Shown here piece by piece: positions 16,589 to 53,640 of a stretch of DNA of 64,000 nucleotides. The stretch comes from Physcia stellaris (lineage: Eukaryota > Ascomycota > Lecanoromycetes > Caliciales > Physciaceae): contig JABSSW010000059.1 in assembly GCA_018902385.1 (NCBI GenBank), positions 124,001 to 188,000 on the forward strand, written 5' to 3'. Below the pieces are notes generated by a model. That model was not told the origin of the DNA, ran no database searches, and worked only from the letters and a program-made list of their open reading frames with translations. Within the stretch, counting starts at the first letter, position 1. Each line of letters opens with the position of its first letter. The position numbers and the translations under genes are program-made.

Positions 16589-16960
16589 GGCTGTTGACAA
16601 AAGAGAAGAAGAATAAGGTGATATGGGCTAGCGATTGTATCGAGAATGCTCTGGACGCTGCTGGATCATAACGCATAGCGGTTCATTAATCTGGCATAAC
16701 AGCTTTTCTAGGGTATATGTAGGTGTCGGCTAATGACCGAGGCGTTCGATGTACTAGTATCGAGGTGTGGCTTACTTGAAAGGGTTTCGATTGTTCTGCT
16801 GTGCGAAGTCCACTGATCTCATTGACGACAAATCACAGTGCACTAACGCCCAAATTCATCGCTCTGATTGAGGTTCTGGCATATTAAGCCAGTACAACAA
16901 TGATTTCTTAACGTGAAAAGCACGGCTTGCGGATAAAGTTTATCCCGAGACAGCGTGAAA
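16589..16960. other. 3' flank of the transporter up to the composition boundary
   Basis: Normal-composition sequence downstream of the transporter gene. Base composition changes abruptly at about 16,950-16,990. No other feature seen. Confidence 0.6.
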
Positions 16961-19900
16961 TGCGAAAGAATTAAAATTACAATGTATCGAATTGTTGAAT
17001 GAATGAAAATAATCACGATGTTTTCGAACAGAAAAATTGATTATTCAAATTGACGAATACAAAATAGTTACAAAAAACGAATTATTGAATGTAAAAGATG
17101 TCAAAATTGCAAATTAATAAAACGAAAAAATGAAAAATTGATTGAAATGTTATTTTGATTGAAAAAATGTAAATATGTTTGAATATCGCATAATGTATAT
17201 ATATGCAAATAAAAAATCAATATTTTAATGAAACGAATTTGACTGAATGATTTAACGATTAAAATTGTAAATAAACATTTTTCATTCAAAATTATTTGAA
17301 ATTTCGAATTCGAATCGCGATGATGACAACAATTAATTGAATTATCATGTAATCAATCAATAAAAATTGATTTCAATCAATTTGTGTGTATAAAATGCAA
17401 TTGAACGACGAAAAAATTTTCAAATAATTGAATTGATAATTTGAAATCATTGTTAACATGTGAAATATAACAAACAATAAACATCATTTTTTTTTGATTG
17501 TTTTGACATCGTTGAAAACTAATGTTGAACGTCGAACAAAAAAAAAATGATTGAAATGTTAACGAAACAACGACGATTGACGATTGCACAAAAAATCGAC
17601 AAAACAATATCGTGAAAAAATGATATACGAATCGAAAAAAAGAAAATGTTGAAAACGTCGATCGAAAAAATAAAAACGATGTAATAATATTGACGAAACA
17701 AATAATGAAAAAAAAAAAAAAAAAAAAAAAAATCGAGAAAAAAAAAACGAAAAAGATGAAAATGACGAACGAAAAAAAAATCGAACAAATGTTTCGACAA
17801 ATTTCTTGATTTGAATTGTAACAAAAAAAAAACGCAATAAATCGTAAAATTGTTAATGATCAAAAAAATCAACTGAATGTATTGATGTGAAAAGTCATTT
17901 ATTTCGTCGTCATTGAAAACATCGTCGCACGATCACAATTGAACGTATGTGAAATTTACGACGTGATGAAAATTCAAAAACGCGTTGAATCGTGTCAGAA
18001 ATACGTTTTTGAAATTCAAAATTTCGTATTACAATTCATCGTCACGATGTAAAAAAATGTACGATCGTGCGAATTGATGTATGCAATGCAAAAATTGAAA
18101 ATGCAAAAAAAATTGCAAAAACGACGATTATTGATTGAAACACGTGCGAAATAAAATTTTTTCGAATTCGTAACAATAATTTTACGAAATGTTGATCATG
18201 AAACATCAATTGTTGATTGACAACAAAAACAAAATGATTTCAACATCATTGAATTCAAATTTCGTTTTTTTTAAAATTTCAAATTTCATATTTCATTTGC
18301 GTAAAATATTGTACGCAATTAACGACATTTGTGTATAAACATTAAAATTTATTGTCGTGTTGAAAATTTGTCATCAATGTCATAAAATTGTTTGTTTCAT
18401 GATATTTTCGAGTTACAACTAAAAACATCGAAAATTGATAACAAAAACAAAATGATTTTTATATCATGAATTGTTGAATTGATTATTTTTTAAAATTTTC
18501 AATATTTTATTTCAATTGTTTAGAATATTGTACGCAATCAATGACAAAAATGTATAAATGTCAAAATTATTTTCGATGTGAAAAATTTGTTTGCATTATG
18601 ATGAAATTGATTTTTTCGTTATGTTTATCGATTTCGTTCATTTCAATTTGATTCGAAATTATGAAATTGTGATTAACAATTCGCATTGTCATGATTAACA
18701 ACAATATCGTTTTTTGACAAACAGCATGAATTCGAACGATATTGATTTTTTGATTATACGATGAAAATTTCACGATTTTGCATTTCAATATTTTCATAAT
18801 CACGTTCAAATTGCAAAAATCGAACGTTTCGTCGAAACAAATTTCATTTAATTTTTGATAAAATTAACATTTTTCATATCATGACATAACATGACATGAT
18901 ATGTTATAATATACAATATAATTATCATATGCATATATCATACATTTTTTATAAGAATTTTTTTTAATGTTTTTTCTTTTAACGTGTTTTTTTTTAATAA
19001 TTTTTGTTACATATTTCGAATTCGATTAATTCAATTTTCAACATTTCGTATTTTTTTGATATTTCGAATTCGAATTATTCAATTTTTCGAATCAAACATG
19101 AACATTTCGAACTCGAATGAACAAAATTTTCGAAATTCAAAAATTCAATTTTCAATATTGAATATATAATTTTTTTTTTTTTTTTTCGTTTTTTTCATTT
19201 TTTATCATTCAATTATTTTTCATAATTTACATTTTTTCATTTTTTTTTTCGTTGCATAAATTTTCTTTTTTGTAATTTCAATTTTTTCAAATTTCACACG
19301 ATGTATTTCGTCATCATCGATCAAATTGACGATCAAATTCAAATTGTTAACGATTTTCGTCAAAACGAAATCGTTTACATTCAAAAATGAAAAATTCAAA
19401 AAATTGTGTTTTTTTTTTATTGACAAAACAATGAATTCAATATCGATTTCGAAAACACGTATTTGTTGAACGACGACATGTTGTTCAAAACGAATTTTTC
19501 ATGTCAAATATGATTTCGTTCGTGTTTTTTCGTTTTGATTTTTGTTCATGTTTTCAATTCATTTTTCAATCGACTGTTTTGATTCAAAATTTCGCAATCA
19601 ATATTTTAATTAAATTTCAAATAAACGAATGTGTGCGAATGTTATGTTTCGCAATATTTAAAAACGATAAAACGTCAATCTTTGCAAATCAATGAAAAAT
19701 TTACGATTTTGTTCGTGATAATCAAAAAAACAAAAACGTTATTCAAATATTGTTTTTATATTCAAAATTCGTGAAAATTTCATTAATCGATTGTTCAACA
19801 AACGTTTTCATTCATGTATTATCATAATTCGAAAAAATATATCAATAAAAACGTTTATTTAAACGACAACAAAAATTCATTTGTCGACAAAATATTGAAC

Positions 19901-20860
19901 ATAACAATCATTTACATTGTCGTATTTGATGAAAATGATTGATGTTCATTTTTTTTATTTTTTTCGTCGTTTTTTCGTATGAATTTTAATCAATTGTTTC
20001 GTTATTTAATTTTCGACGAAATTACAAATTTAAATTTTATCAATTTGTCGACGCGTTCGTTGACGACAATTTTCAATGATTTTCTAAACAATTTTGTGAA
20101 CGAAACAATGTTCATTTTCGAACGTTTCGTTTTTTCAAATTTTGCGTCGACGCAAATTTCTTTTTGAAAATTTTTTCAATAATTTTTTTCACATTTGATT
20201 TTTTCATCGAATTCGTCGCGATTCGAATTCAACAATTTTCATTTATTTCGCATATGTTTCAAATCGAAATTGAAAACGACGATGATTTTCAAATTATGAT
20301 TTCAAACGATGATTATTCAGTTTTCGTTGAAATGAACATCGAAAATGCGACAGCAAAAACGTTTGACGATAAAATAAAAATCGAAATTTTCATCAAAAAA
20401 AAATCAAACGTGAAAAGAAAATTATTTGAAAAACAATGAATGTTATTATGAAAACGATTAACAAAAAATTTCAAATAATTGTTTTTGCAACGCGAAAATT
20501 CAACGAAAAAAAAACAATTTTAATAATGATTTGATTTAATGTTTAATTTTTTGTTAATAAACAAATAATAAATGATTTTGTTTTTTTGATTTTTGTTGTA
20601 TCGTTCGAATTGATTTTTTCGATTAAACAAAATAAATGTCAAAATTAACATCTTTTTCGAATTGAAAAAAAATCATTTTTGTCAATCGTGATTCGCATTT
20701 GATTTTTGTTTTAAATTGTCATCAATTTCGTTTTCGATCATTAATGTTCGTATAACGTTTTTCGTTTCAAAAATAATTTTCGTGATCAATATATTCAACA
20801 TAACGATCAATTAAATCAAATTTTTATCACGTGATTTTTCGAACATTAATGTAACATATA
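16961..20860. other. Heavily decayed sequence, no family recognised
   Basis: Extremely AT-rich with long A and T runs (A-run near 17,705-17,731). Open frames are low-complexity Phe/Lys/Asn/Ile products of base composition. A frame at 20,164-20,439 (+) is longer and more varied, but I could not assign it. Confidence 0.5.
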
Positions 20861-21687: not shown

Positions 21688-22039
21688 CAAACGAACATGA
21701 AATCGAAAATCATCGTATCGATCAAAGTTGTATATGTTTCTGTAAAACTCGTACTAAAAATAGTATAGTTTAATGAATTATTGACATCAGAAATGTATAA
21801 CTTGAAATGTAATATATTGATTTATTAATCGTTACAGAACAAATTACGTTTTGCAATTGTTTTTTATTTACATTTTATTTGTTCAATCGTACGAATTCGA
21901 TCGACTTCGACTGAAAGTATGAGCTTGTTGAATTTATCGTTGATCGAGTTGTAAAATGATTGAGATTGATTTTTTTCGAAATCATTCGAATTTCGATAAT
22001 CGAATTGCTTGACGAAATGCGAATCGCATTTTCGGAAAT

Positions 22040-22390
22040 TTTGAATTTTTATTTCTTACATACGTCTTTTTCTTAGCATCGAAGTTTCTTGAAATCAACA
22101 TGTTAACAGAAATTTTGACGTATTCTGTTTGTCTTGTTCTTGCATCGATTTGAAAAATCACTATGATCGTGATTTTCGCATTTCGAAATATTTTGTTTCG
22201 AATTCGATAGTCAGTTTGCGTTAAAAATCTGAGAAAACATTTTCTTGAATGTTTCAGAAAAAACATAGTTTGATGAATCAATTGTTTGTTGCTTTCATGA
22301 TCGAATGTTTGATTTCGTACAATTCACAATTTTCGATATGATGATTGACAACTGACTTGTTGACAAAAAGTTCTGAATTCGAACATCTTT
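22040..22390 (-). repeat. Left arm of a ~360-bp inverted repeat
   Basis: The reverse complement of this stretch matches 27,581-27,962. Shared landmarks include GAATTCAGA at the inner end, AGATTTTTAACGCAAACTGA in the middle and AACTTCGATGCTAA near the outer end. Similarity by eye is roughly 70-75 percent. The minus strand reads partly open, with a peptide containing N-A-K-I-T-I-I-V-I-F-Q that recurs near 25,350 and 27,770. Confidence 0.7.
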
Positions 22391-22484
22391 TCATTTTTTC
22401 ATTTTTTTATTTCGAATATCAACATCGATATCATGAGAAAATATGTAACGCGATAAACGTTCATTAATCGCGATCGTTGTAAGA

Positions 22485-22795
22485 CATTCAGAATTCATGT
22501 CAGCAGAAAGTGCGAATCGAATCTCGATATAATCATATGATCGCATGCAGAGCAAACATCGAATCAAAAGAAAGTCTGTTTGCATTTCTTTGTATCACAA
22601 CAAGCAGTAAATCGAGTGATTTGCAATTGAAACACATTGTTCGATTTATTCGTATCATTGAACATGCAAAACGATTATATAATGAAAAGTTTGCAAGACA
22701 ATTAGTTCTGCAATTATTAGTCTAGTCATAATATCGTTTTCTGTTATACATTTTTGATGTCACACTTCGTATTTTACATTCTAATAACTACAATA
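22485..22795 (+). repeat. Dispersed ~300-bp repeat, copy A
   Basis: Closely matches copy B at 27,965 and more distantly copy C at 20,865. It contains a 71-residue open frame (22,510-22,725) conserved in copy B, with the shared string L-Q-L-K-H-I-V-R-F-I-R and the same stop position. I do not recognise the peptide. Confidence 0.75.
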
Positions 22796-22799
22796 ATCT

Positions 22800-25700
22800 A
22801 TCGATTAGCATCATTCGTGTATAACTAGCAACTCAATGATCAGACGTGAAATCACGTTCTCAACGTTCGATTTTGCACGAAAAAGCGATTTTACAGAAGT
22901 CTGAACGAGAAACAGATCGAGAACGAAAAATCTATATCATACAGTTAAGTATCGCATTCATGACTGTTTGTGCTGTCTTGCTATCATGTATTGTTCAGTT
23001 TAGAAAACAAATTCGAGCTTGAAGAAACTGAAAGCTTCAAAACAGAAATTCAAAAGCAAGCTATTTCGATGCAACAAGAAGTCTGCACAAATAGTTTCAA
23101 TCATTCGATCTAATTAACGTTTTCAGCGACAAGCGCAAATCATTTCGAGCTTTCGACTATTCATATCGAAAACGACAAATCAAGAACGTCAAGACGATTG
23201 AAAAAATAAACGCAAATTGCTGAAAATTTCTATTCAAAATGAATTCACTATATTCAAATCATGAAGAACAATTTCAGAGCAACGCTTTCGATCGTCTTAT
23301 TCGCAACAAGAAACATCATGAATCAAAATAATAAAAACATCTTTAAGAGCAAAACGAATGCTGATTTCAATAAAGACAAATGACGATCTGAACAGAATCT
23401 TCTTTGACGATTGCGAAGTCATATGAATACAATGTCATTCAAAATCAAGAAACGATAAGAAACTTCAGTTCGATAAAATTAACAAACATTCAATCAAGCA
23501 AAGTTGCGAATGTGACAAGCTTGATCAGCATTTGATACGATGACAAAAATTTCGTATTGATTCAATAAAAGCTGATTTGCAAAAATTGATTTCAAAAACG
23601 AATAGCAAACGAACGACATGATCAATTCGATTGACTTCGCATATTGAATGCTCATAAATAATAAAAATAGCAACAACGAGTTTTTTGTGACGAACTTTGC
23701 TGACAATATCATCAAAAACTGTCGCAAAAAGCTTTGCATGACTAAAAATCAATTCGAAAAATAATGCTTTGTTGAATTCGAACAATTTCATTTCAAATTC
23801 TTAATTACAAGACTGTAATCTTAAGCAGCAATCGATTCAGATCTTAGACGTCTACTTCGTACGAATAGAACTTTTGTACAGAAACAGTCGCAGACGCTTT
23901 CTCGAAAAAATGTTTTTAAAAATGATTTGAATCAGTGAATTTCGTGAATCACATGAATGCAATCAAATCAAAATGAATATATCGATCAAATTCGATCTTG
24001 ACATTCTTCAATACAAATCTCTTCATCAAATGCTGTATCAAGCACATCGAGTCGAAAAAATCAATCAGTTTTGCTCTTCGCAGCAAAAAAAGAATTTTCG
24101 TGATATTCGTACGAGTCTTTCATGACGAGAAAACGATTTCGAATGAGACGCATTTTGAACAATGAGCTCGCATAGATCAAATTCTATCGAAAATCGAAAA
24201 CATGCAACGAACATACATTTTGCTCAACAGATTTGCAATAGATTTGACGAGCATGCGATATGTTTGACGAATTCGCAATGAATCACGAGCATGCAATAGA
24301 CTCGCAGCGAAACAAAAAATCATCTCATAATTCTATTTATTTTTTATCGAAAGATGATTAACAGTATCGAGAATATACTTGATTGAATATCTAGACAACG
24401 ATTTCATCAGATCGCTCGTTTTTTCTATTCTCATCGCTGAAGTCGAATAAAGAATTATGCTGTACAAGCATCGAAAACGATCTTATCAGATTTTTCAGTT
24501 TTGTCATTTTCTAAAAAACATCAATTCATCATCTGATCAGAAATTCGTTCAACGAAGACTTTCAATTCATAAATTGTATGATTGCACACGCAGCAAATTT
24601 CGCATCTACAAACTTTCATATGATTGAGACATACAGTTTGCAACAAACTTCAGCACACAACGAATTTCGCATGAAACAAAATACAAACGCAATGAACGTT
24701 AAAGCAAACTATAAATTGTTGAGTTTCGTTTTATTCTTTGTCTCGCTAATTTGCTCAAATAGATTTTTGACGAAACGTCTCGATTTATATGTTACGATGT
24801 ATTCAGACAAAAGTCATACGTTTCGTGAAACATAATACAAATTCGTCTTCTTTTAGATTGTGCAGACGTAGAAGCAAGAAACTTCGTCGTTTTTTTCGAT
24901 TGATGCGTAAACGCAGCAACACGAATTGCTATACGAGCAATGAATTATCTCAAGAAACGTGTCATTCTCGAAGCTGTACAAATTATAAACACAAAAAAAT
25001 TTCAGTAAATTTGATTTCTTGATTTTATGCTAAAAGAATTCAGCAAAATTTCACATAGAAAACAAAACACGAAACGCATTTTTGAAAGCATTTATCATGC
25101 AATAATTCGATTCGATTAAATCGTTCGTGTGAAAATCAACGTTCAGAACAAAACAATAAATTTTATTTTTCGTTAGATAAATTCTGCAATGTAATAAGTT
25201 CACAAAAATTTGTGATCATGATATCATCGAAATCTCAACAGATTCAGACGATTTGATTAGAAAAAATCATTGAGAAAGAAATTGCAAAAACATTCGTCAG
25301 TTTGACGCAATTGCGACGATCTTTGCAAACGTCTCGATCAATTCGAGTTTGTCAAATGCGAAAATCACGACTATAGTGATTTTTCAAGTCATTTCGATGC
25401 GATCAAACAAAAATGCAAAAGTCAAAATCGAAAAACAAGTATCTCGTGCTCGAATGAGCTTCAAATCAGACGAAAAGCAAATACTTCATGTTCGAGTGAA
25501 CTTCAAATCAAAAAGAATTGCGAATTCGAATTTCTGACAACGAGAAAGTATTTCGTGTTCGAATGATTTCGTTTTCATTTTCGATTGCGCATCAGACGTG
25601 ATCGTCGATGAATATAGTAGTATTGATAATGCGTGAATTCTCGAGTTTGATCAATGAGATGACTGAGCAAAAACATGTTCACGAATCTGATGTAAACATA

Positions 25701-27580
25701 TGTCGACGACTTTCAATGTTTTGAATCGTTCATTGCTCAAAATCTCGTGCGCGATTCAAGTGAAACAGAAATTAACTATTTTTGATATGTCACGCTCGCA
25801 TTGACATGACGAAGAGAAAATATTATGACACGATGACTGTTTGTACGTCTCGATCGAATCTTATAAAGAAAACGTCGTTCATGCGAAACAATTTCTGATC
25901 GAACATTTGATGTGAAACGCATCTTGAAATCAATACGAAAATATTGTAAATCGAATCAAGCAAACGAGATGATTCATCAGACATCGAACACGATTCGAGC
26001 ATGCAAAAAGCGATCATAAATTGCGAAACATATCGTCATACGTTAAGACATCTCGTCAAAATCTGAACATGTGAACAAGAATCGAAAAATGTTACGAAAT
26101 CAAAAACTGCGAAATATATAAATCGTTTGTAAAGACGTCTCGTCAAAATTTCATACTTTTCGTGTAATGAAACAAGTCGAAAGCGAGATACAGATCAATT
26201 GTCAAGACATTTCGTCCGAACTGAAACATACGAATAATCAAGTCGAAAATCATGCATCAATTGCAAGCAAGCAAAACATCTCGTCAACACTCGATCATAA
26301 TAAAAAACATATTACGAGACATGCGTCACGTGCAAACAAGCACAGCATCTCGTCATAAACTTTTAGCATGCAAACACGATCAGAAATTACAAAATATAGT
26401 GTCACTGTAAAACATTTTGACAAAATCTAAACATGCGAGCATGAATCAGAAATTTTTAGCAAGCATTTCGTCACAAGTTACACGATAAACTATCGTTTTC
26501 ATTCAACGAAACTAAAATGAATTAACTTTATGTGAATTTCGTAGCAAACTATCAGAGAGTAAAGCATGAACTGTGTATTCACAATATGATGATCGCAAAA
26601 AATCTCATAAAATGTTATTAAATTTCATGACGACAGTTTGTTTGCAAAACATGTTCAAAAATAAATCAATTTTGCAAATCAATGCACGAAAAATCACGAT
26701 GCTTTTAAACGTGCATAACTTGAAATTCAAAATCAATAAAGTCAATAAGTTTGCAAACTCGCAACAAAACATCAAGAATGAAAATTTTTCAATCATTCAA
26801 GATATTCAAGAAACGAATTCATCACATAAATATATTCAAAACGTTTATGCGTTGACGTTTCGTCTCGTTGCTCGAGAAAGCTCAAACTAAAAAAAAAAAG
26901 AAAGTTTCGCTAAAACTCACGTATCAACTTATAAAACATCGACAATGACAAAACGAACAAATCATGCAACAAAAACGTATCGAAGTCGATGACAGACAAA
27001 TGCAAATTTTCTGACGATACAATTGATTCGAACAATCATATCGATATCGTGACGCGTTCAGCGTTTTGTAAATGCAATTCTTGATGAAACAATTGACTCG
27101 AACAATCATGTCGAGTGATCAAATCTCGAACAAATCGTACAGCGAAAAAATATCTGATGATCAATCGCACGACGAATGCAATTTTTTGATGATACAATTG
27201 ATTCGAAAACAATTCAATATCATGACGCGTTCAACGCTTTGCAGATATAATTTCTTTGACGAAACAATTGATTCGAAAACAATTATGTTCGTATCACGAT
27301 TTCATGTCATCATTTTGTGTTGTTTACTGTCAAGAATTTACGACGCATGAAGAACTGAATCGTGTCAAAAACATCTTCAGAAACTGTTGTTCGATTTAAT
27401 TGAGCGTTAAGTATCGTGAAAAAATAAAAATAGAAAATCGAGAAAATTTTCGAAGTTTGATATATCAAGTGCGATCGCGTCTATTCGGCGTTTTTCGCGA
27501 TTAATCATTTCTTTTTTTTCGAAGCAACTCATCGATTTCAATATAGAGAACAGAAAGAAAAAAAAAATAAATAAAAATTC
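22800..27580. other. Moderately decayed block, family not recognised
   Basis: Less AT-rich than its surroundings (CT and AG still present), so probably a younger insertion. It lies between the arms of the 22.0/27.6 kb inverted repeat. Open frames on + at 24,578-24,835, 26,167-26,358 and 26,573-26,890 have varied composition, the last ending R-L-V-A-R-E-S-S-N, but none matches a family I can name. The string ATGCGAAAATCACGA recurs at 25,357 and 27,779. Confidence 0.5.
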
Positions 27581-27962
27581 GAATTCAGATTTCGCTGTCA
27601 ACAGTCAATTGTCAATCATCAAATTCAGAATCGCAAATTGTACGAAATCGAATTTTCGATATTGAAAACAGCAAGACAGACGAATCATCAAATCATGCTT
27701 TTTCTGAATCATTCACGAAAATGTTCTTTCAGATTTTTAACGCAAACTGACTATGAATTGCGAGAAGAATGAAATTCGATGCGAAAATCACGATCACAAT
27801 GATTTTTCAAATCAGCATATTCGATGCGAAAATCGCGATGACAACGATTTTTCAAGTTTTCAAAATGAAACATACATACACACAAATTCAAAAATCTCGA
27901 TGCAAAACATATGAAAGAAAATCATCTCAAAAAACTTCGATGCTAAAAAGAAAACGCATGTA
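27581..27962 (+). repeat. Right arm of the ~360-bp inverted repeat
   Basis: Partner of 22,040-22,390 in opposite orientation. It runs directly into the ~300-bp repeat copy B. It contains a short internal duplication of the motif GATGCGAAAATC (27,779 and 27,824). Confidence 0.7.
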
Positions 27963-27964
27963 AA

Positions 27965-28262
27965 ACATTCAAAATTCATGTCAACAAAAAGTGCGAATCG
28001 AATTTCGATATAATCATATGATCGCATGCAAAGCAAACATCGAATCAAAAAAAAATCTGTTTGCATTTTTTTGTATCACAACAAGCAGTAAATCGAGTGA
28101 CTTGCAATTGAAACATATTGTTCGATTTATTCGTATCATTGAACATGCAAAACGATTATATAATGAAAAATCTGTAAAACAATTAATTTTGCAGTTATTA
28201 ATCTAGTCATAATATCGTTTTTGCTATACATTTTTGATGTCACATTTCGTATCTTACAATCG
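27965..28262 (+). repeat. Dispersed ~300-bp repeat, copy B
   Basis: Starts ACATTCAAAATTCATGTCAA and ends TTTTTGATGTCACATTTCG. It carries the same 71-residue open frame as copy A (27,991-28,206) with mostly conservative replacements. Confidence 0.75.
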
Positions 28263-28299
28263 CATTGATATTCAGATTTCGAAATTCTTTTTGATTTCA

Positions 28300-31200
28300 T
28301 TTCACATTTTTTATTCAACGATTTATCGTTCGATCAAATCGAACAACAATTTTTGAAAATGTTTTTGACACAATTCAACTTTTCATGCGTCGTAAGTTCT
28401 AAGCAATAAATAGCACACAAAGTTTTTGAAAACGAAAATGTGTTAACATGCAATAAATATTTCAATTCATTTTTTTCGTGACTTTCGATGATTTGTTTCT
28501 TTATTGACATCAAATTTTTTTGAATTTTCGTTGTGAAATTGTCGTAAAGTTCTTCGAAAATGTTTAACAAACGATACAAACTTTCAAATCGCGTTTTCAT
28601 AATTTTTTCATTTTATCAGATAGTAAAAATCGAATTCGCTGTAAAACTTGTCTGAAATCTCATCTGTTTTGAAAATTTTGCTGTTTTTAATGATTTCGAT
28701 TTCATAAAATTTCTTCGTGATTTTCATTTTCATGTTTTCGTCGAGTTCAATATTTTCAGATTCAAAAAAATGTGACGTATGTTTTTTCTTCTTCTTAACA
28801 TTGAACTTTTTTAGAAAAAAGACGTGAAAAACGTCGTGAATGCGTCAACGTTTGAATAAATCTAAACGATAAATTTGATTTTTTATAGTTTTTAAAATCT
28901 AAAATGACTCAAAGAATTTTCATTTCAACTTTTTGTTTCGTTTAGTTTTGATGTTTTTATCGTTCAGATTCACGTAATTTTCGACGTTGTATGATATTGA
29001 TTTTGTGCGTTCGTTCTTGTACATCGTTTGCTGTTGTTGTGTCACGAGTAAATTGTTTTTCAATATTCGAAATAATTCAATTAAATGTTCAGCGTGTTTC
29101 TTTGCGAATTTGAATTTAATTTTCTTGTTTCATGTTTTTTCGAAAAACATACGAGACGAATATTCAAACATAATTTCGAACGAAAAAATGTTTGTGAATG
29201 CGTGTTTGCTATTGTTGTAAACGAACTCGATCATGAACAACAGTTTTATTCAATCATTTTGCTCGAAATTGACGAAAACGCGAAAAAATTGCTTCATGAC
29301 GTTGTTCATTCGTTCGATTTGTTCATCGATTTGAAAATAAAAAACGATTGACAATTTACGTTTGATTTTCAAAACGTAACACAACGCATCGTTGTATTTG
29401 AATGTGAAAATGAAATTTCTGTCGATAACGATTGACGAAAAAAAATCGTGAAATCGAATGATTTCGCGAAATAAAATTTCGATTAGATTTTTTGCGAAAA
29501 TCGTTTTAGTCATTGATATGTAATGAATCATTTTCGTTAAACGATTCACAATTATTAAAATCGAGTCGTAAATCGTTTCATTTCACGCTTTATTTGAAAA
29601 AAATTCTGTCACGAAATTCATGAAAAAATTAATTCACTTAAATTCAAAAATCGAAAGAAAAAAGAACTCGTCGTATGATTTGTGTCGTGCAATTTTGTTT
29701 CGTTTGCAAACGACGCATGTTTCACAATGTTTTTTGATTTGCTGTCGCATTTCAAGAATTTCGATAAAATTTTGATTCGATCAATAATATTTTCGACGTA
29801 TCAATTTCAACGTTCGTTCGATGTCGAAATAATCAACGAGCGAATTATCGTGATGTGTACGAATAACGTTTTTACGCAAATTTTTTGAAATGTAAACGAC
29901 ATCGTCGTAATACAAAAATTCATTTTTGTGCTGTCAATGATTTGTTTTTGTTTTCGAAGTAATTAATTTTCGACATATTTCAGAAACGAATTGATTTTTA
30001 TCGATCAAATTTCGAACGAAATTCAACAATGAAAATGTTGATTCGTCGTTATATGTCGTTTTTTCTCGTAAAACAATCTGTATTCGAATTTTATGCATTG
30101 CGCGTTCAAATACAATCGTTGATTTTAACATAAAAATTTTTCATTTTATGAATGTCACGTTTGATTTTTGCTCAATCGAATGTTTCGAATTTTTGAATTT
30201 TTTTGAATCGAATGTTTTCGAAACAATTTGATTGAAATTCGATTTCGTTTTGAATTTTTGAATCAAATGTTTCTGAAACAACGTTGATTGATTCGATATT
30301 TTTGAATCATTTAAATGCGATCGACGTTTCATGTTATGCATCGCATTCATGAATCGTTTCATGACATGCATCGAAAAAAAATTATTCAATTGACTTTAAT
30401 CGCATTTATTCGCATTTTTTCGAAACGTTTCGAGTTTGCGATCAATGACTTTTGCAATTGTTTCAAAATCTGACGATTGTTTTCGACGTTTTTCTCAATA
30501 ATTATCATGTGATCAAGTCGTTTTGAAAATTCGTCAACAAAATTTTTGTTATCGAAACGATAATCGATTAAAAAATTATATCGATTCAATTTTGAAAATC
30601 GAATTTGACGTGACGACAATTTAATTGTAATCATAAATTGTTTCAAATTGCGATGATCAATAAAAACAAAAATTTGTTTTTTTGCGTTTTCGAAATAGTG
30701 TTTTCATTGCTTGAACGAAGTCACAATAGTCAGCAATTTCTTGTCATGAATTTCGTAATTGCATTCGATCGAAATCATTTTGCGTAAAAAATACGCAACA
30801 AAATGTCAATGATTTTCGTCGTCTTGTTGACATAAAATAATTTCGATGATTTTGTCGAATGCGTCGATTTCGACTCGAATAACACGTTCGAAATCGAAAT
30901 GACGTAAAATTGATATTTCGATAAATGTTTTGCGAAATCGTTTGAAAATTTTCAACGTCTCATTGATCAAAAAAATGTGAATATTCGAAAATTTGTTGCG
31001 ATTTCGACTTTGATTTCGTTTACGTTTACGAATATTCTTTCGTAATTTTTGCGATTTTTTTAGTATAACGATCAGAAATTCAACAATCTTACTGAAATGT
31101 TTAATGAATCGTCGATAAAAGTTAACGATATCGAGAAACTGCATGATGTCGAAAACGTTGCGAAATACAAATCATTGTTGAATAATATCGATTTTCTTGT

Positions 31201-31340
31201 TTTGCAAATTCGTATTTCTTTGAATGAAATAACGAATTCAAGAAATCTATTTTCAACGAATCATTTGCATTTCTCAAAAACAATATATAGTTTATTTTTC
31301 TTAAAACGATCAAAAATTCATTTGATATCGTCGATATGAA
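28300..31340 (-). mobile_element. Ty3/gypsy retrotransposon relic, partial
   Basis: A fossil on the minus strand with pol domains in gypsy order: end of reverse transcriptase (about 31.3-30.8 kb, with F-Y-R-R-F-I-K and I-L-R-H-F), RNase H (about 30.9-30.4 kb), then the integrase core (about 29.55-29.25 kb, recognisable by I-D-R-x-x-x-F-T-F-K and the Q-x-D-E-Q-I-E-R region). The gag and early pol part seems to be missing, and no LTR pair was found. It is broken with many breaks and heavily mutated, so it is older than the copia element at 44-50 kb. Confidence 0.8.
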
Positions 31341-31560: not shown

Positions 31561-31751
31561 ATAAATTTTATTCTTACAAATTTTACTGAAAAAAAAAAAA
31601 TATTACAAAAAATTTTAAACATGAATAATGAATAATGAATTTTGATAATGCAATTTGAAAAAAAAAAAAAATTGATCATTATTCACAAACAAATGATAAT
31701 GCATCATGATAATGCATATTCGTTATTTAATCAAATTAAAAATCGAACATT

Positions 31752-32640
31752 ATGAAATTTGCATCGTTCGTATTTTCGTTATTTTCGAATTCGTTTTCGT
31801 CATCGAAATTTTTCACGTTGTTTTTTTTTTCGTCATCGTCGTCGTTTTTTGCATTTTTTTTTTTGATCGCATTGAAAAATTCGATTTTAATATTTCGATT
31901 TTTCGCATTGTGCGAAAATGCAAAATTTTTAATTGTTTTTCGCATTTTTTTCATCGCGTCAACAAAATTCGTCGTTTTCAATGCGCGAATTTTCATATTA
32001 TCATAAAAAACGCGTTGCGCGATCAATTTCGTCATTGAATACAAATATTTTTTTATTGCGTTTTGCGTTCGTTCAATGTTTTTATCGTTTTGAAATTAAA
32101 ATGAATCATTAATGAAATCAACAAATTTTGATATTCAATATTTATTGATTGTTGCGAAAATTCGAAATTAATTGTTTGACGTATGATTTCGATTGCATTT
32201 TTTTTGATATCGTTTTGTCGTGTTTGTTCGTCGAATTTTTTTTTGTTTTGTCGATAAAATTCATTTTTCAAAAAACACGTTAAAAATTAATTAAAAATCG
32301 CAATTTTTATATGCATTATTCGATTGCATTATCATGATTGTCGTTTTCAATACGAACATCGAACATTTTTTTTTTTTATTATTTTTTTTCATAATTTTGC
32401 GATTTTTTTCATCAAATTCAAATCAAACAATAATTTTTATCAAATTTTTTTTGAATTTGAACACAACGACATTGTCGACATTTTGTGTTTTGTAAAATTT
32501 GATTTGAATTTTCGATCAATTTTTTTTTTTTCGCGATTAACGACATTTTTTGAATTCGTCGAATAAATTTTAACAAATGTAAATTGTGCAAATTCGAACA
32601 TTTTGAATGTAAATATCAACACGATAATGCGACAAAAAAT
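31752..32640 (-). pseudogene. Fossil Cys-rich/coiled-coil gene, copy 1
   Basis: Minus-strand open segments at about 32,622-32,440, 32,271-32,053 and 32,044-31,736 follow each other. In one frame the first shows clustered cysteines (clearer in copy 2: K-C-R-Q-C-R-C-V-Q). The second has a charged helical stretch with Q-N-K-K-K-F-D-E-Q-T-R-Q-N-D; the third ends in an acidic D/E/N-rich tail. The layout resembles the short 'Cys cluster plus coiled coil' proteins often found among fungal repeats, of unknown function. A paired ATAATGC motif separates the segments at about 32,312, so it may mark a former intron. Confidence 0.35.
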
Positions 32641-34073: not shown

Positions 34074-34148
34074 GCGTTCAAATTTTTCGCGTTCAAATTT
34101 TTTGCGTTCAAATTTTTTGCGTCGAAATTTTTCGCGTTCAAATTTGTC
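34074..34148 (+). repeat. Five 15-bp units in the H3-like gene tail
   Basis: Five in-phase copies of GCGTTCAAATTTTTC or close variants, encoding A-F-K-F-F. A C-to-T origin from a Pro/Ser/Lys/Ala unit such as A-S-K-P-P is likely (inference), which would suit a basic disordered histone tail. Confidence 0.8.
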
Positions 34149-44189: not shown

Positions 44190-44289
44190 ATAGTGATCGA
44201 TCTTGACACGTTTCGCTTAATCGATCAATCAGAAATTCTGATTTTATTCGTGCTCATATTTCAATTTTTTGTCATCGTACTTTTCAACA
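44190..44289 (-). repeat. Copia end repeat (3' copy)
   Basis: About 90 percent identical by eye to 49,864-49,963. On the minus strand it starts TGTTGAAAAGTACGATGAC, so it has the TG start expected of an LTR, and CA occurs near the other end. It is short for an LTR; the true repeat may be longer and eroded. Confidence 0.75.
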
Positions 44290-47200
44290 TTTTCACTCGA
44301 TGACAATCATGTTCATTGCATTCGTGAATGCGATTCTCACTGAATTTCGATTCTTGCATTGATTGTAAACTCTCAACAGTGCTAATTCGTGCAACGGCGT
44401 AACTTTCATTGAGTTTCAATTTTTACGTTCATTGATGGAGAAAACATTGAATTTCTTTGATCAAAAAATCGAGTTCGAACGATTTCGAAAAAAATCATTT
44501 TGAATCATCATGCAATTCGAGTTTGAGCACGATCAACGAGTTTCTGTTTTCAATCATAATTTGTCAAATTTGTACAATCGAGTCATCATCGCTTTAAAAT
44601 GAAAAAAATGACGTGATTTCAATCAAATTCGAACTTTCTTGATTATTGACGAGAAAAACATTGACTTTTTTTGATCAAAAAACTAGACTCGAACGATTTC
44701 AAAAAAAATCATTTTGAATCATCATGCAATTCAAATTTGAACACGATCAACGAGTTTCTGTTTTCGATCATGATTCGTCAAATATGTACGATTGAATCAT
44801 CAACATTTTAACATGAAAAAAGCAATTTTGATTATTGAGAAAAATTTAATTGATTTTCGATTTCTTCAATTTCGACTGTTTCACGAATTTCTTGAATTTA
44901 TTTTTTGACAATGATTTAATCAAATCATCGACTATCATGTTTGCACTTGAAACGTAATTCAATTGAATCAAATTCTTCTGATGCAAATTTCTGATATTAT
45001 GATAAATCACATCAATGTGTTTTGATCGTTCGTGAATATGTGCGTCTTTGATCAACAAGTTAGCGATTTGATTATTTCTCAAAAATTGCATTGATAAGCA
45101 AACTTCATGTTTATCGTTTTGAGTGATTGCTATTTGATTCAGTTCGATTTCGAAATATTTGATGAAATTCAAATTTCGAAAAAATTGTGTTATTCATAAT
45201 TTTTTTTTAACGCATGTCGATAAAATCATATATTCGATTTCAATGATTGAAATAACGATCGATTTTTGTTTACGATTCATTCATGATATTGATTTTTCAA
45301 CGAACATGTAAACGTATTCGAAAATCGACTTTTTGTTCAATTTATCGATTGCGTAATCAAAATTCGAATAAATTTTGACTTTGAAACTTTCATTGTTGTT
45401 CAATCTCAAATCGTATACAAAGTTTAAGTCGATGATCGATCGAATGTAACGAAGCAAAGTTTTCAATTGCTTTGTCGTGATGTTTCGCAAAATCATTGAA
45501 ATATTGATTTAATCGTTTTAATGCGAAAACGATATTTGAACGAATGTGTATGACAACATACATAAACTTTTCAATTTTGTGTTGATAGTTTTTGAATCAA
45601 TTCGCTCGTCGTTCGATTGATTGATCTGAGTGAGTCGTAATCGTTCATGAATAGTTTCGTGCGTTCGTGTTTATCGATGTTCATATGCAATTCATTCAAT
45701 ATTTCATTCAGATAATGAGTTTGATTCAATCGAATAGTTCGTTTTTTACGATCGCGAGTGATTTTAATGTCAAAAATTTTTTTCATTTTTCTCAAATTCT
45801 TGACTTTGAATATTTTTTTGAACTTATCTTTGAATCAATTGATTTGCTCGTTGAATTTGACGACAACAAAAATGTCATTCACGTAAAAAAATAATATGAT
45901 TTCTCGTTTTTATGACGAAACATGCAAGAGTCAATCGAAATCTGTTCGAAATTCAATTTGTGCAATTCTTTTACGCAACGCTCGTGTCAATTTCTAATCG
46001 CTTGCTTCAATTCATAAAGATTTCGACGAATCAAAAGTGCTTGTTCGAGAAATAAATTCACGCCGAATGACGATTTCATGTAAATTATCTTCTTTAAAAA
46101 TGATTTCGTGAAAGCATTGTTGACGTTCATTTGATAACATTCGAAATTTTTCAACGCGACGATGACAAAAAACAGACGAAAAGTATCGAATTTGACAGTT
46201 GAAACAAAGATATCTGTATAGTTTATTTCATATATTTGCGAAAAATTTTTGCAACGAATTTGACTTTCAATTTGTTCAACGTATCATTCATATGCATTTT
46301 GACCTTGAACATTCATTTACTAATGACGATATTGACGTTTTTCGATGAAATGACGACGTTTCAAATTTCATTAATTATTAACGTCGTCAATTCGGTCTGA
46401 ATAATCTCGAGTCAGAATTTATTTCAAATGAAATTATTGACAGTTTTCTGATAGTTTTCGAACACAGATATGATTAGCTTTTCAACGAATTGTCGATTTA
46501 TTTTTTTGTTGTTGCAAATAAAATTCATTTATCGTGTTCGCATGTATCAAAATTTTCGACTAGAAAAATCATCATGACGCGTGCAATTTTGTTGCGATGT
46601 TCATTTCGTTTTTTCTCGTTCGTGATATTTCGTTTACGTTTAAAAATTGTCACGTGAAGAAATTGTTGCATCATGCGTGAAAATTTCGTGAAAAATGCTA
46701 GTTTACACGCGTTTGAATTGTCGATTTCGCGATAAATTCGTTGATTTCATTTTTTCATTTGATGTATCGATAAATTCATCGTTTTTTTTATGTGCATTGA
46801 TTGAATTTTTTTTGTTTTCGAAATCATAGACGCAGTAAAAGTCGAAGATTTCGCAAAAATTGATGCAACAAATGCTGATGCAAACGTCGATGTCATCGAA
46901 ACGACTGCAAATGCAAAAGTTATTTTGCGTGATTTTTCGACAAATCGTTTTCAAATAATTCGTTTATCGTAATCGTGAACAAATTCAACGATTCATTTTT
47001 TCATTTTTCACGTTCAAAAAACATTATTTTGTGATGCTTGATGACATCACGACGATCGAAAATTCATATTTTGTATTGAATCGTGATGTTTTCGTCATAA
47101 TTCATGAACACGTTCGATTTCTTTGTATTGACGAATTTATTCTTTTTATTTTTTTCAAACAATGATTTGATATCAACGAACGAATAACATTTGCATTTTC

Positions 47201-49863
47201 AAACGCGTATGTGATTTATCGACGATTTAATATCTGTTCAGATTTCAATAAAGCTTGTTGAATTGTCGTCGATTACTGATTTCGTGTTAATACGATTGCG
47301 AACATATCATTTGTTTTTTGTTTCAAATCAAAATTCTATAAACAATTTTGCATTTTGAATCATTGTTCGAATCTGATTTTCGATCGTTTTTATGACACGT
47401 TTTATTACGTCATTTTGAATGAAATTATACGAAACGATGTACTGTGAAACAATGTCGATAAATTCGCATCAAAGAATCGAGTATAAATTTCAGTTTTTTG
47501 ACGTTGTCACAACGTATTGTCTGTAATTTTCGTTGAGTTTCTAATTTCATTTTCAACTTTCATTTGTTGAAAGTTTTTGATGCATCGACTCGTTTGCGAA
47601 AAGATAGAATTCACGTTCGTCGAAAATGATTATTCACGATTTCTAAAAAGTATTCGTAATCGAATCTTGAAGCGGATAAAAATTCACAAATATCGATAAA
47701 TATCAATTTCAATATGTGAGTTTTGCGTTCGGCTAAACGACGATTATGTGCATTAATCATTTTCGTAATCGCACATATTTTGCATGAATCGTTGCGATTT
47801 TCAACAATGAATATTGACTTGCGTAAAGTTGTGATTCTTGTGCAAATTTCGAAGTTTTGCAGATTTCATATGATCAAGAACGTCGATATCATAACTCGTA
47901 TAAATCACGTCTCTTTTGATCGGCATTTGAATCAATACTTATCAACATTGAGTCAATTTTTAGTCAACATCTTGATACTTGAATCAACATTTGAAATACT
48001 TGAGCCAACATTCGATGATTGAAAATCGATTTCGATATCATTTCGAAAATCAATATTTGCATCGGGCAAAATTTCGTTCGAGTTCACGATTGTTGACATT
48101 GCAAATGAAACAGACAAGATTTTAAAAAATTCAATTGCAAACATCGTGTTGCTCGTTAACAATGCGTATTTTTTAAGTTTTGATGTGATTTTGTTTATTA
48201 TGTAAACATTTTTTGAACGAATGTTCGAAATATTTCAACGTTTTGCTTATTGCGCATGAACAAATTATCGTCATTGAAATTTTTATCAAATTCTTTTTGA
48301 TAAAGTGTTTGTCGAATAGAAAATTGACGTCGAAATCAAATACATAAAACATTTTCGTCAACGTGTTTTCATCGTTTTTGACGCGCATCGTCATTGAATC
48401 ACACTGATTTGAGTACAATTTTTTTTTTTCGATTTTAATCGTGCGTCTTTTAATCGACTTGAAAAACTCACTAAAAAATCGAAAATCGTCAATCATGTGA
48501 GACGAACGTCGATATTTGCAATTCAGACGAATTTGAAAAATCTACTGATCAATTTTTTGAATAAACGACGATTTTTTCATGTGTTTTTCATTGTTTGAAT
48601 CGATGTCGATGTCGAAACTTGAATTGCTGTTGAACGAAAAGAAATCGACGACGTTGTACGCTTTGTGCTTTTTATTTTTTTTGCGTAAAAATTTTTTTGA
48701 TTTTTTGTTTCTTCGTTCATTTTTTTAATTTTTCAGAAAATCGCATTTTGCGATTCGATGTGAATCATCGCAAAAAAACATTTCGTCTTTTTCGCTTTAA
48801 TTTTGAGACGGCGAGAAAATTTTCGTCGAAATTGAAAAATCGTCGTTGAAATATGCGATAAAATTGACGACGATTGTTTTGATCATCAATATCGATTCGA
48901 CGATCTTGCTCGCAATGAGTTTGTCTTTTTTTTTTTGCAATTTCTGAATAAATTTATCGACATCGAGATTGTTTTGTGCGTTGATTGCATCACGAATGAC
49001 ATCGTATTCGACAAGGCAAAAATGTTAAAAGTGTTTGAAAACGACGTTTTGATTTGAACAAATTCGTCATGTCTGATTGCATGCTTGCAATTTTGCGACT
49101 TTTTTTGATGATATCGATATAAACGATCTCAATGATCACGTTTGGAAATTTCTTGTAATTTATGAATTTTTGCAACAATTGTCGTTCAATTGTAACAAAT
49201 TTTTGTTTGTATTTGTTGACAAAAATTTTTCAAATCTCTCTGACAGTTTTCAGTTTCGTCATCAATTTTTGATCATCGTCATCGATACATTCGATAAATT
49301 GATATTGTGTTTTTGCGTCGAATTTCTTTTCAATTTTTTTCTTATCAAAATTCAAATCGACATTTCATTTTGATTTTCGAAAATATTCGGCAACAATTTT
49401 CGACACATAATTTGAATCGACGATCATTCAAATTTTTTCGTCGATGAATCATTGCTTCATTAATTTGAATCATTTTTCGCAATTTTGACGAATAAAAATA
49501 TCGCAAACTCGACGCGCGTTGAATTTAATGAACTCGAAATCGTTCATGATGCGTAATGTGATATGTAAATATGTATTCGAATGTAAATTCTTTTTACTGT
49601 CGTGTGTTTTCTCGTGAAATTGTCGATCGAGTCGTGTAAATTCTTTTTATTGCTTTAACGCGATCGAACGATGAGTTTTTCACAATTGTTTGACTTTCGT
49701 GATTTCGTGATCGAACGATTGACGTTGACAGTCACAGAAAGTTTATGTTAATTCGAATCTCATAACTTATTGAACGAATGTGAGTGATTGTCGTTACATT
49801 GCATGCAATATTATCGAAGTTACGTACAAAAGTAAGTACAATTTGATTGCGCAAATGTTTCTA

Positions 49864-49963
49864 ATAGTGATCGATTTTGACACGTTTCGTTTAATCGATC
49901 AATCAAAAGTTTTGATTTTATTCGTGTTCATATTTCAATCTTTTGTCATCGTACTTTTCAACA
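49864..49963 (-). repeat. Copia end repeat (5' copy)
   Basis: Direct-repeat partner of 44,190-44,289. No matching target-site duplication is visible outside the pair. Confidence 0.75.
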
Positions 49964-51984
49964 ATCGTGAACAAACAAATTCGAAATTTTTTTTAAAAAA
50001 ATTCTTTCAAACGTTTTCAAAATTAAAATTGAATTTGATAAAATTGTCAAATTCGACATTTCGTCATTGTTTTGCAAATTCACGAATTTCGCATTGCAAT
50101 AACGTTTATATTTAATGAATAAAACAAACAATCGAAAATTCGTTTTGAAATTCAAAATGAATTTTATTCAAATAATTAATAATATCGAAAATTCATCGAA
50201 TGCGCATTGAATTATAATCGAAATCGCATTAAAACGTTGCAAACATTGCGAAAAATCGCAAAACGAACACAAATTTGACAACAACATAATTTTTCAAATC
50301 ACAAAATTATTGCGATAATGAATCGATTTTCGTTGTTTTTGCAAAATTGAATTGCGTTCATTTCGTTTTACAATTTTGATTAAATAAATGAAAATCGTAT
50401 GTGATTGTTGATTGCGATACAAAATGTGCAACAATTGTACGAACGCAACAATTTTGATGATTGATCGAATCAAAAATAACAAATTATTTTTTTGAAAACG
50501 TGAATTAAATATTGATTGAATTTATCGACTTTAAACAATACGAACGCAAAATTGATCAGAAATTTTTTCGATCGATCATTCGCGTTAAACGATTTTAATG
50601 AATATTTTTTTATAAATTGTGTTTTATAAACGAAATCGTTAATTACATTATGAATCGTACATTTTTCAAAAACATGAATGAAAAACATCGTTCGAAATGA
50701 TTATCGACAAAAAGTTTAATTTTGTTCACATCGTTCAATATAAAACAAAAATATATTTTTTGAATAAAAATATTTCGAAAAAGAAAAAAATGAAAATCAA
50801 AACACATATCGACTTTTTTGTAAATTATAACAACATCAACATTTTTCTTATTTGAATTTTTAATCAACGAAAAATTATTCGTACACGTGATGTCATATTC
50901 AACGAAAATTCACGTTATCGTTTTAACGAAATAAATTCAATTCAATTCGTTAACGAATTTTTTTTAATTAACGATACGCTTGATATATCGCAAAACGATT
51001 TCACGAAAATAATGAATAACGAATCAAACAACGACGAAAATTTATGAAAATTAACATTTACAAAATTTATTATCGATCGCGATGCAAAAAAATTTCACAA
51101 ACAAATGATTGAAAACGATTTTGAACGAGAATATTTATTTTCATTTGTTTCATTTTCGTCAAAAAATGAAAACGTTTCGAATACGTTTGATTTTTCGTTA
51201 TTTGTCGTTACAAAAAATTTTTCGTCATTTGTCGTTGCAAAAACAATGAAAAAATTATTCTTGTTTGCATCATTTTTGAAAAAAAAAAATCGAAACATTG
51301 AACAAAAACGACGATTGACGAAACGAATATTCAATTTGAAAAAATTATTTGCATTCGCAAATCAAATTCGTTTCGAAATTTCAATTATTACATTGTTTTG
51401 AAAAACGCGTTCGCAAAAAAAATGCGTTCATTTTACGAAATATTTATAATTTCATTAACGATAAAAATGAAATCGCATCGTGACAATTTTTTCGTCGAAT
51501 TAAAATTTTATTATTAAATGTTCAAACATGTTGAAATCGTCGATTTTTTACGAATTATTGACGTGAAAATCAAAACATTACAATCAAAACAAATTTGAAA
51601 AAAAATATCATGAAATCATGTCAAACAAACAAAAAAATTTTTATATTTATCACATGAGTATTCAAATACAAATTCGACAATGAAAAATATTTGATAAAAC
51701 ACAAAATTAAATTGTGTGTTCGAAAAAATTTTCAACAAATCGAACAAAACGTTTATGCAATTACATTAATTATTAAAATATTTCGAACATTAATGATCAT
51801 AATTACAATTTTCGATTTGAATATTCGTTAATATGACGCAATCAATGCATTCGCAAATAACGATATCGACGAATTCATTTATTGCAAATCGTTTAACGAT
51901 TGAAAAAAAACAAACAATGTGTTATTTTTTCTATTGAAAACATTATACGAATTGAAACAATTTTCAATATTATGATATCGACAT
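49964..51984. other. Heavily decayed sequence, no family assigned
   Basis: About 2 kb with almost no CT, CC, AG or GG. A plus-strand frame at 51,105-51,401 is Phe/Ser/Lys-rich and unassigned. It may belong to the older copia scrap that follows on the same strand. Confidence 0.45.
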
Positions 51985-52676
51985 TTGTCGATCATTTTTA
52001 ACAATTTAAATTTGAAACAAATGTTCGACATCGAATGTTTATTCATATGCGATTACATAATTTTATTTTTTTTTCGTGAACGATATAATTATCATGTATT
52101 ATTTTCAATATTTCAAACAAATCGACGTTTTCGAAAAAAAAATTTCGAAACATACGAGATAAAAAACATGAACGAAATCGAATAATTTTTCAATATTCGC
52201 ATTACACGCGATAAAAACAACAAATAACGTCGTTTTGTTAAAACAATTATATCGATAAATTCATTAATAAATTCAATATCAATATGAACAAAAACAAATC
52301 AAAATCATTTATAATCAATTATATTTCGATGATAAAAAATGAAAATAATATTATTTCACAAAAAATTCACATGTATCAACAAAAAATCGATTCGATTAAT
52401 TTCGTTGCAACAATTTTTCGATTAAATGTAATTGTTATTGCATCATTATTATTTGAATATTTTACGAATTCATTTAAACATTATGCGAAACAAACGATTC
52501 GAACGTTAAAATATTTGACACATATCAAATATTACGTTATTGTTTACAAAAATCAAACAAATCATGAAATTATCATTTTTTTAAATTTTTCAAACACGTT
52601 ATTCGCAAATTATTTAAACATTCGTCAAAATTTAAATGAATATTGTTTTATGTTTTTCGACGATTTCATGAATTAA
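51985..52676 (+). mobile_element. Older Ty1/copia scrap
   Basis: The frame at 52,284-52,676 matches the end of copia reverse transcriptase: Y-Q-Q-K-I-x-S-I-N-F-x-A-x-I-x-R-L-x-V, then S-F-K-H-Y and L-K-Y-L-T-H-I-K-Y-Y. It is opposite in orientation to the 44-50 kb element and far more mutated, so it is a separate and older insertion. Broken and partial; no end repeats seen. Confidence 0.65.
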
Positions 52677-53640
52677 AAAATCACAAAGCAAAAAACAATC
52701 ATTATCAATTTTATCGAAATCGAATTATTGATCATATCAATGACGATTAACATCAAAATGTGATAAAATCGTTTTTTTGAATCAATAAATATGAACATGA
52801 AAAAATTTATTCACATTCGAATGCGATAATCGTCAAATTATACGAATTTTTATTACGTTAACGACGAAATTTATTATCAAATTACATTATGTGAATATAC
52901 ATCGTCATTGATTACGTCAAATAATACAGAAAAACATGATTAACATTCAATGAATTTTTACAACGAACATTTTGATCGACGATTTTATCAAAATTTTATC
53001 ATTTCAAAAACAAAAAATCTTCGTGAAATTGATTGATTTAAAATTTATTTCTGTATTGAAAAAATCATGAATGATTATCGTTTTATTGTTTTGAATTTTG
53101 TTTTTTTTTGTAACATACATGAAATGACAACACAAAAAGTGTGCGAATGTTAAAACATTAATTTTAACAAAAACGCATTAATTTTTCTTTCGTCAAATTA
53201 TATTAATTGAATTTTGATTGCAATATTCGCGAAAAACATTTGCGAAAATTGTATTTTAACATTCTGTATCAAATTCGAAAAAAAAAAAACGACGAATTCG
53301 ATCAATCAAAAATCGCATAAATCGCATCGAAGAATAAAATAAAACATCAAAAATAAAACGAAATATCAAATATTTTTTCTAAAAAGATGTGTAAAACTAA
53401 ATAATCAATCAAAAATCGTCAAAAACTTAATAATTAATGCGCATTTCAATGACATTAAATGTTAAAAATTAGCACTTTATAAAACAACATGCAATCAATG
53501 ATTTATCTATTCAGAAATTTTACATTTTTGTTTTTCGTTTTAATCATGTTCGTATTCAGTTTTCGTCATTGTTGATGTTGCGAACGTGCGTTATGAACGC
53601 ATCATCGATAGAATTTCTGAATAAATTCGGAAATCTGAAC
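52677..53640. other. End of the AT island, nothing recognised
   Basis: AT-rich decay up to about 53,570, then a short intermediate stretch with normal composition restored by about 53,650. No coding region seen. Confidence 0.5.

Follow-up and report, generated by a model that had tools for sequence, protein, structure and literature searches.

A hypermutated island of retrotransposon relics in Physcia stellaris points to a RIP-like mutator directed at CpC and CpT

Composition and content of the island

The window analysed here is a stretch of 64,000 nucleotides from the lichen fungus Physcia stellaris (Ascomycota; Lecanoromycetes; GenBank assembly GCA_018902385.1, contig JABSSW010000059.1, positions 124,001 to 188,000 of the forward strand); positions without a contig name refer to this window. 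It contains a hypermutated island of 36,682 bases, a nest of retrotransposon relics (Table 1) in which cytosines followed by a pyrimidine (CpY, i.e., CpC and CpT) have been lost from both strands. The edges of the island are sharp in the dinucleotide counts, the nearest flanking CC/GG dinucleotides being located at 16,945 on the left and 53,629 on the right.

Relative to the expectation from base composition, CC+GG (18 observed, 1,249 expected) and CT+AG (947 observed, 3,537 expected) are strongly depleted within the island. CA+TG (4,708 observed, 3,537 expected) and CG (1,948 observed, 624 expected) exceed expectation, and the CpG loss that marks decay of methylated CpG or a Masc2-type process is not seen. 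The longest runs free of CC/GG measure 16,908 (27,488–44,395), 5,088, 4,239 and 4,181 bases. Per kb and strand, the core (29,300–44,000) contains 61 CA, 0.0 CC, 51 CG and 3.9 CT, and the left flank (1–16,800), which is ordinary DNA, contains 67, 62, 60 and 66, respectively. CpA and CpG thus remain near gene level inside the island. Because CpY has been consumed almost exclusively, the GC content has fallen to 26%; in Cladonia rangiformis, most transposon-derived sequence has a GC content of 10–20% (PMC12542154). The pattern is genuine and its polarity is strong. Our recount of 33,781–34,020 reproduced exactly the figures given in an earlier, sequence-only reading of the window (17 CpA, 12 CpG, 1 CpT, and no CpC, ApG or GpG), along with its ratios of 0.24 for TpA/ApT (10/41) and 2.6 for (CpA+TpG)/(ApC+GpT) (37/14). 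CpC, CpT, ApG and GpG were again each zero in 52,381–52,620.

The same losses are evident at the protein level. In six-frame translation, the island yields 0.02% proline, 0.02% glycine and 0.0% tryptophan (6.2%, 6.2% and 1.9% in the flank), because CCN, GGN and TGG codons have almost vanished. Glutamine and histidine are each at about the flank level, and arginine amounts to 5.9% versus 9.5% in the flank. The zero tryptophan content agrees with the conversion of TGG to TGA suggested in the sequence-only reading. Its companion statement that open frames survive was overstated, as no standard stop-to-stop frame within the island exceeds 166 amino acids, the length of the longest.

The Ty3/gypsy relic is separated from the opposite end of the same repeat by a younger element that carries long terminal repeats (LTRs). 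At least 39 other places in the genome match the gypsy part at 28,259–29,000, and the relic is collinear with the fetched copies up to 30,516. The 301-base terminal repeats of the nested element (22,478–22,778 and 27,959–28,258) are 92.4% identical and differ by 20 CpY changes, 2 changes at cytosines followed by a purine (CpR, i.e., CpA and CpG) and no transversions. The LTRs of the Ty1/copia element differ by 7 CpY changes and nothing else. Elsewhere in the genome, this element matches 26 stretches of at least 1 kb, some of which may be parts of one copy; 13 of these stretches are at least 5.7 kb long and show 88–92% identity.

Table 1. Features of the hypermutated island (window coordinates).
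Feature	Position	Strand	Basis
Hypermutated island	16946..53628		C-to-T changes at CpC/CpT, both strands; dinucleotide counts, sharp edges
Gypsy repeat, opposite end, separated by the nested element	21741..22476	-	Adjoins 28,259 onwards in 6/6 copies compared, out of 29 fetched
Younger nested LTR element	22478..28258		Terminal repeats, composition (CC 0.2/kb, CT ~36–36.5/kb)
Ty3/gypsy relic (RNase H, integrase zinc-binding remains)	28259..31243	-	PF17917 E 7e-22, PF17921 E 2e-11, TGA read as tryptophan
Diverged tandem duplication, ~3 kb	31681..37560		Direct repeats D5, D6, D8, D9 and D11, spacing 3,053–3,063; both copies mutated
Mutated histone-H3-like frame	34271..34645	+	PF00125 E 8e-9; H3 label from reading the translation by eye
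Second mutated histone-H3-like frame	37818..38192	+	PF00125 E 5e-7
Ty1/copia LTR retrotransposon	44190..49963	-	RVT_2 E 6e-16, Pol_BBD E 1e-4; LTR pair
Further retrotransposon relic	50643..51446	+	PF25597 SH3_retrovirus E 3e-6, TGA read as tryptophan

Direction, context and order of the changes

The direction of change was read from sequences of known ancestry. The only 45S ribosomal DNA (rDNA) unit found in the assembly (contig C41, 41,000–51,500; loci L041–L043) is hypermutated, and no intact 45S unit was found in the assembly by a 5.8S search or by a search with the DNA of the mutated unit. As no other unit was found, Rfam consensus letters were used as the ancestor, and only positions at which the target letter and its neighbour are both marked as conserved by Rfam were counted. 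At these positions, CpC has changed at 103/108 sites, CpU at 73/120, CpA at 2/96 and CpG at 0/82 (Fisher p = 5e-64). Conserved A/U letters are unchanged at 674/682 positions, and letters other than those expected occur at three CpC sites and one CpA site. Long insertions, which may be introns, are found within the small-subunit gene of this unit. Short repeats escape RIP (repeat-induced point mutation); in the present genome, seven of eight 5S rRNA matches score 77–89 bits and look intact on this comparison of scores, not of letters, and the eighth (C14:433,396–433,503) has a lower score of 57 bits and may be a mutated copy.

LTR pairs provide a second comparison, since an element inserts with two identical LTRs. 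Five pairs were available, from the two window elements and from three of four fetched copia copies. Over 959 compared sites, 62 CpY and 8 CpR changes were counted within these pairs, along with 2 transversions. The LTR pairs and the rDNA unit both feature C:G-to-T:A transitions on the two strands in a burst-like pattern, as in repeat-induced point mutation (RIP).

Alignments of repeat copies revealed the same target. In six aligned copia copies, the fraction of T at sites inferred to have been C is.10 before A,.05 before G,.75 before T and.83 before C; the corresponding values in 30 gypsy copies are.23,.11,.89 and.98. Ancestry in this test is inferred from the copies themselves, so that sites changed in all copies are invisible to it. 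At CpT in the copia set, the 5' base has no effect (.75,.73 and.75 after A, G and T), and the base two positions after the C is equally without influence (.72–.75). CpY rather than CpA is the mutated context both in these alignments and in the comparisons of known ancestry, which bears out the earlier proposal that C changes to T before T or C and is spared before A or G.

CpC is hit before CpT. In three older stretches of the island, CC has dropped to 0.0/kb and CT to about 4 to 5/kb. In contrast, the nested element (22.5–28.2k) retains only 0.2 CC/kb yet about 36 CT/kb, and in the copia element (44.2–50.0k) CC is nearly gone (1.3/kb) while CT still amounts to 21/kb. The loss of CpC ahead of CpT follows from these two elements, which are poor in CC yet retain CT.

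Several observations weigh against so simple a rule. When all Rfam consensus letters are counted, 82% of CpC, 64% of CpU, 20% of CpA and 22% of CpG have changed; this count includes unconserved positions, at which the consensus need not be ancestral, and CpA and CpG values of this size are as expected in that case. The T fraction at CpA is not zero within the copy sets (.10 and.23), and CpR differences among copia copies (100–153) outnumber transversions (40–93). A weak CpR component, involving CpA and CpG, may therefore accompany the CpY changes. In the gypsy set, CpT is mutated at.89 after T versus.73 after A and.80 after G, in cells of 533, 30 and 30 sites, respectively. Strand coordination of mutations occurs in classical RIP. 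For CpT mutations within three copia copies, it was not clear: one copy shows a weak same-strand excess (0.060, with a null standard deviation of 0.026), the second is clustered alike on both strands and the third shows neither feature; nothing clear emerged in 12 rows of the gypsy set. Finally, two of the 15 AT-rich windows in the genome sample described below retain CC (23 and 10.5/kb). Both are located beside normal DNA, which suggests that they represent island edges.

Reach across the genome and detection by RIP indices

The genome searched comprises 44 Mb in 147 contigs; the published draft is reported as 46.57 Mb in 184 scaffolds with a GC content of 43.3%, and no RIP analysis is described in the accessible text of that paper (PMC7513301). 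The repeat part of 29 gypsy loci has on average 0.14 CC/kb per strand (zero in 17 loci, maximum 0.87), and five copia copies have 0.0–0.1 CC/kb per strand. A divergent copia copy on contig C15, tried as a possibly less-mutated copy, proved to be fully mutated and as CC-poor as the others. The genome was also sampled with 80 one-kb windows, placed by hand at round coordinates within 20 stretches. Fifteen of these windows have a GC content below 0.38, with means of 2.5 CC, 15 CT, 63 CA and 59 CG per kb, and CC is at most 1/kb in 13 of them. The remaining 65 windows, which are gene-like as defined by GC and not by copy number, have means of 59 CC, 66 CT, 68 CA and 56 CG per kb. CpC and CpT are therefore at normal mean levels in gene-like DNA; a depletion equal to that of the island would have spoken against the earlier proposal. 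As in RIP, repeats are affected and gene-like DNA is spared: the gypsy loci, six other copia copies and the rDNA unit are all CC-depleted.

The sequence-only reading had predicted that scans based on RIP indices would miss the island. This is indeed the case: sliding-window criteria taken from published thresholds (PMC7882544) flag 0/72 windows of the island, and likewise 0/258 windows of the fetched loci (L006–L043) and 0/140 sample windows. Canonical CpA-directed RIP is not seen, with a whole-island TpA/ApT of 0.43, a substrate index of 1.54 and the two changes at 96 CpA sites of the rDNA unit.

Relatives of the island relics were also detected among protein sequences. One relic used as a protein query has 34 relatives among 116 candidates. 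Pooled, these relatives contain 3 prolines and 9 glycines in 5,854 residues, and 0 prolines and 4 glycines in the 1,165 residues outside the query-aligned part; the search favours such sequences, as matches must share 5-residue words with a query free of proline and glycine. This amino-acid composition is suggestive of a CpC-loss process in other genomes, probably those of other lichens, which may thus share CpC/CpT targeting. The relatives feature 39 tryptophans, most simply explained as TGA codons called as tryptophan under genetic code 4 by gene callers. Two scans of viral contigs and one of genome contigs, carried out with related relic proteins, found no related DNA in other species. Protein databases contain 'proteins' poor in proline and glycine (P0238–P0271), some with code-4-like tryptophans, which are probably hypermutated lichen relics mistaken for genes. 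The missing proline and glycine codons provide a simple protein-level marker for such DNA and for false proteins in metagenome databases.

Candidate enzymes, alternative processes and known systems

We interpret the island, with a probability of about 0.82, as a set of retrotransposon relics that owe their inactivation to a RIP-like mutator, directed at repeats, which converts C to T at CpY, and at CpC before CpT. By analogy with RIP, duplication would trigger the mutator, which would act before meiosis, and the enzyme would be a RID/Masc1-class C5-cytosine methyltransferase.

A search for RID/Masc1-type and DIM-2-type methyltransferases, the check proposed along with the sequence-only reading, returned four PF00145 matches in the genome, which we read as three C5-methyltransferase genes. 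The gene on contig C3 matches PDB 9bap, named DNA (cytosine-5-)-methyltransferase, with E 2e-181, and is presumably of DIM-2 type, there being no protein named DIM-2 among the searched sequences. We take the genes on contigs C5 and C6 to belong to the RID/Masc1 class, in a tree that contains no protein named RID or Masc1; the presence of such a gene, typical of RIP, would thus apply twice over. In this tree (quick LG+G4, with long-branch warnings elsewhere in the tree), the C5 gene, which is of RID type, groups with Xylona and many lichen fungi. The C6 gene is located within a clade of 38 rows with a Shimodaira–Hasegawa-like approximate likelihood ratio test (SH-aLRT) support of 98, of which Heterodermia is the sole named member; the neighbours of this clade are Aspergillus and Penicillium rows (SH-aLRT 83). 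By eye, the C6 gene appears intact, with plausible introns.

The C6 clade is set apart by the loop past the catalytic cysteine, which reads approximately AQxxKPxDFEDKQA in place of the AHTxxGxxDExN of most other rows. FED[KR] occurs in 26 of the 28 readable clade rows (FEDI in the remaining two) and in 0/116 readable rows outside the clade, 97 of which have the usual loop motif; ten clade rows and eight others that lack the searched motif were left out of this scoring. In C5-methyltransferases, this loop covers the target base, and changes in it could alter the reading of the 3' base. In nine clade rows (P0137, P0140, P0147, P0151, P0152, P0154–P0156 and P0158), the catalytic motif reads PPCP and not PPCQ; eight of the nine retain an FE/YE-type loop.

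On these grounds, the divergent C6 paralogue with its rebuilt catalytic loop is the favoured but unproven candidate for the enzyme, at a little short of even odds; the RID-type C5 gene is an unlikely candidate and the DIM-2-type C3 gene a slightly less likely one. A broader proposal, put forward tentatively and with slightly more doubt than the choice of the C6 gene, is that an additional RID-class enzyme, its catalytic loop rebuilt, may have evolved in a lineage of lichen fungi around Physcia and Heterodermia and shifted RIP from CpA towards CpC/CpT. The resulting genome defence would be invisible to the indices and would leave codons for proline, glycine and tryptophan all but absent from the mutated DNA. 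That protein sequence underlies target choice in this class has been suggested earlier: Amselem et al. connected a motif of RID with the CpT signatures of three further fungi (PMC4352252). As two RID-class paralogues with different loops are present in one genome, it becomes directly testable what determines the target of RIP.

An unlikely alternative is that a DIM-2-type enzyme methylates heterochromatic repeats with a leaning towards CpT and CpC, the methylated cytosines then being deaminated. A DIM-2-type gene is present, and a CpT preference is assigned to Neurospora DIM-2 in a recent review, which also has all CpN methylated (PMC13297926). In P. stellaris, however, CpC outranks CpT, and none of the 82 conserved CpG sites of the rRNA genes has changed. 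Very unlikely is a broad RIP acting at every C, followed by repair that restores CpA and CpG. Thymine glycosylases with a context preference exist, but the repair would have to be near-perfect at CpA and CpG (2/178 changed) and almost absent at CpC (103/108 changed). Slow decay of ordinary methylated cytosines, with no mutational burst, is equally improbable: the degree of CpT loss does differ between copies, as such decay would allow, but the five LTR pairs combine 70 differences of the C-to-T type with only the two transversions. Cytidine deaminases of the APOBEC or AID type acting on single strands could account for near-saturated C-to-T change under a simple dinucleotide rule. These enzymes read the base 5' of the C; here the 3' base decides, CpT in copia copies is mutated alike after A, G and T, and conserved CCG loses its first C and keeps the second (for instance, AUCCGC has become AUUCGC in the large-subunit rRNA), which makes this origin extremely unlikely. 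An assembly or sequencing artefact, conceivable in a nanopore/Illumina hybrid assembly (PMC7513301), or foreign DNA of odd composition can practically be dismissed, as specific dinucleotides are affected on both strands, in the rDNA and in several families of repeats spread over many contigs, in mutated DNA that adjoins normal genes and in copies that differ individually.

The RIP-like mutator favoured here resembles RIP in Neurospora crassa and other Pezizomycotina in the C-to-T changes on both strands, in the targeting of repeats and sparing of gene-like DNA, and in the presence of RID- and DIM-2-type genes. The order of preference is CpA>CpT>CpG>CpC in N. crassa, and CpA~CpG followed by CpT>CpC in T. 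reesei (PMC5496416). In contrast, P. stellaris features CpC>CpT, with CpA and CpG near zero, and TpA/ApT consequently falls. The process is thus RIP-like in the tested features save for its inverted target, and is a variant of RIP-like defence, not canonical RIP. Signatures at both CpA and CpT have been described in Magnaporthe oryzae, Botrytis, Sclerotinia, Colletotrichum truncatum and Anisogramma (PMC4352252, PMC6180176, PMC10998396). These fungi share CpT with P. stellaris, but CpA is mutated too, and the available text does not list CpC among the signatures; in C. truncatum and Anisogramma, the RIP indices of repeat families are mostly canonical (PMC6180176, PMC10998396). In basidiomycetes and Tuber, repeat mutation is of the CpG type, and the authors tied the context to the methyltransferase class (PMC4352252). 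The species-specific context is a point of likeness, whereas CpG is spared in P. stellaris. The methyltransferases of Aspergillus and Penicillium belong to the same class and are nearest to the C6 clade, but it is in the Physcia-type clade that the loop has been rebuilt.

CpC changes have been noted beside the classical ones, as CpC-to-TpT double changes accompanying CpA changes in Monilinia (PMC8959702) and as CpC depletion beside dominant CpA-to-TpA changes in S. nodorum (PMC2621366). In the fungal studies examined, as far as their accessible text goes, the dominant targets named are CpA, CpT or CpG, not CpC, and no description of CpC-targeted fungal repeat mutation was found in the open-licence literature, represented mostly by titles and the openings of abstracts. 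A survey published in 2025, covering 1,239 fungal genomes, concludes that a preference for CpA is common to RIP-like defences; the 130 species with strong marks all belong to four other classes, and none is a member of the Lecanoromycetes (PMC12543289). P. stellaris presents a strong system of the RIP-like kind whose preference is the reverse, so that index-based surveys can under-count RIP. The precedence of CpC over CpT, the lack of a clear 5'-base effect and the odd RID-class methyltransferase gene are new relative to the sequence-only reading.

Two further features of the island are the 3-kb tandem duplication and the histone-like frames. The copies of the duplication differ by 423 transversions across 2,711 columns, and the duplication is therefore old. 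The two H3-like frames of Table 1 belong to a repeat family with a third island frame at 39,547–39,750 on the minus strand. Weak histone matches, often stop-bearing, occur on contigs C30, C47, C72, C27, C4 and others, often with copies in both orientations separated by a few kb.

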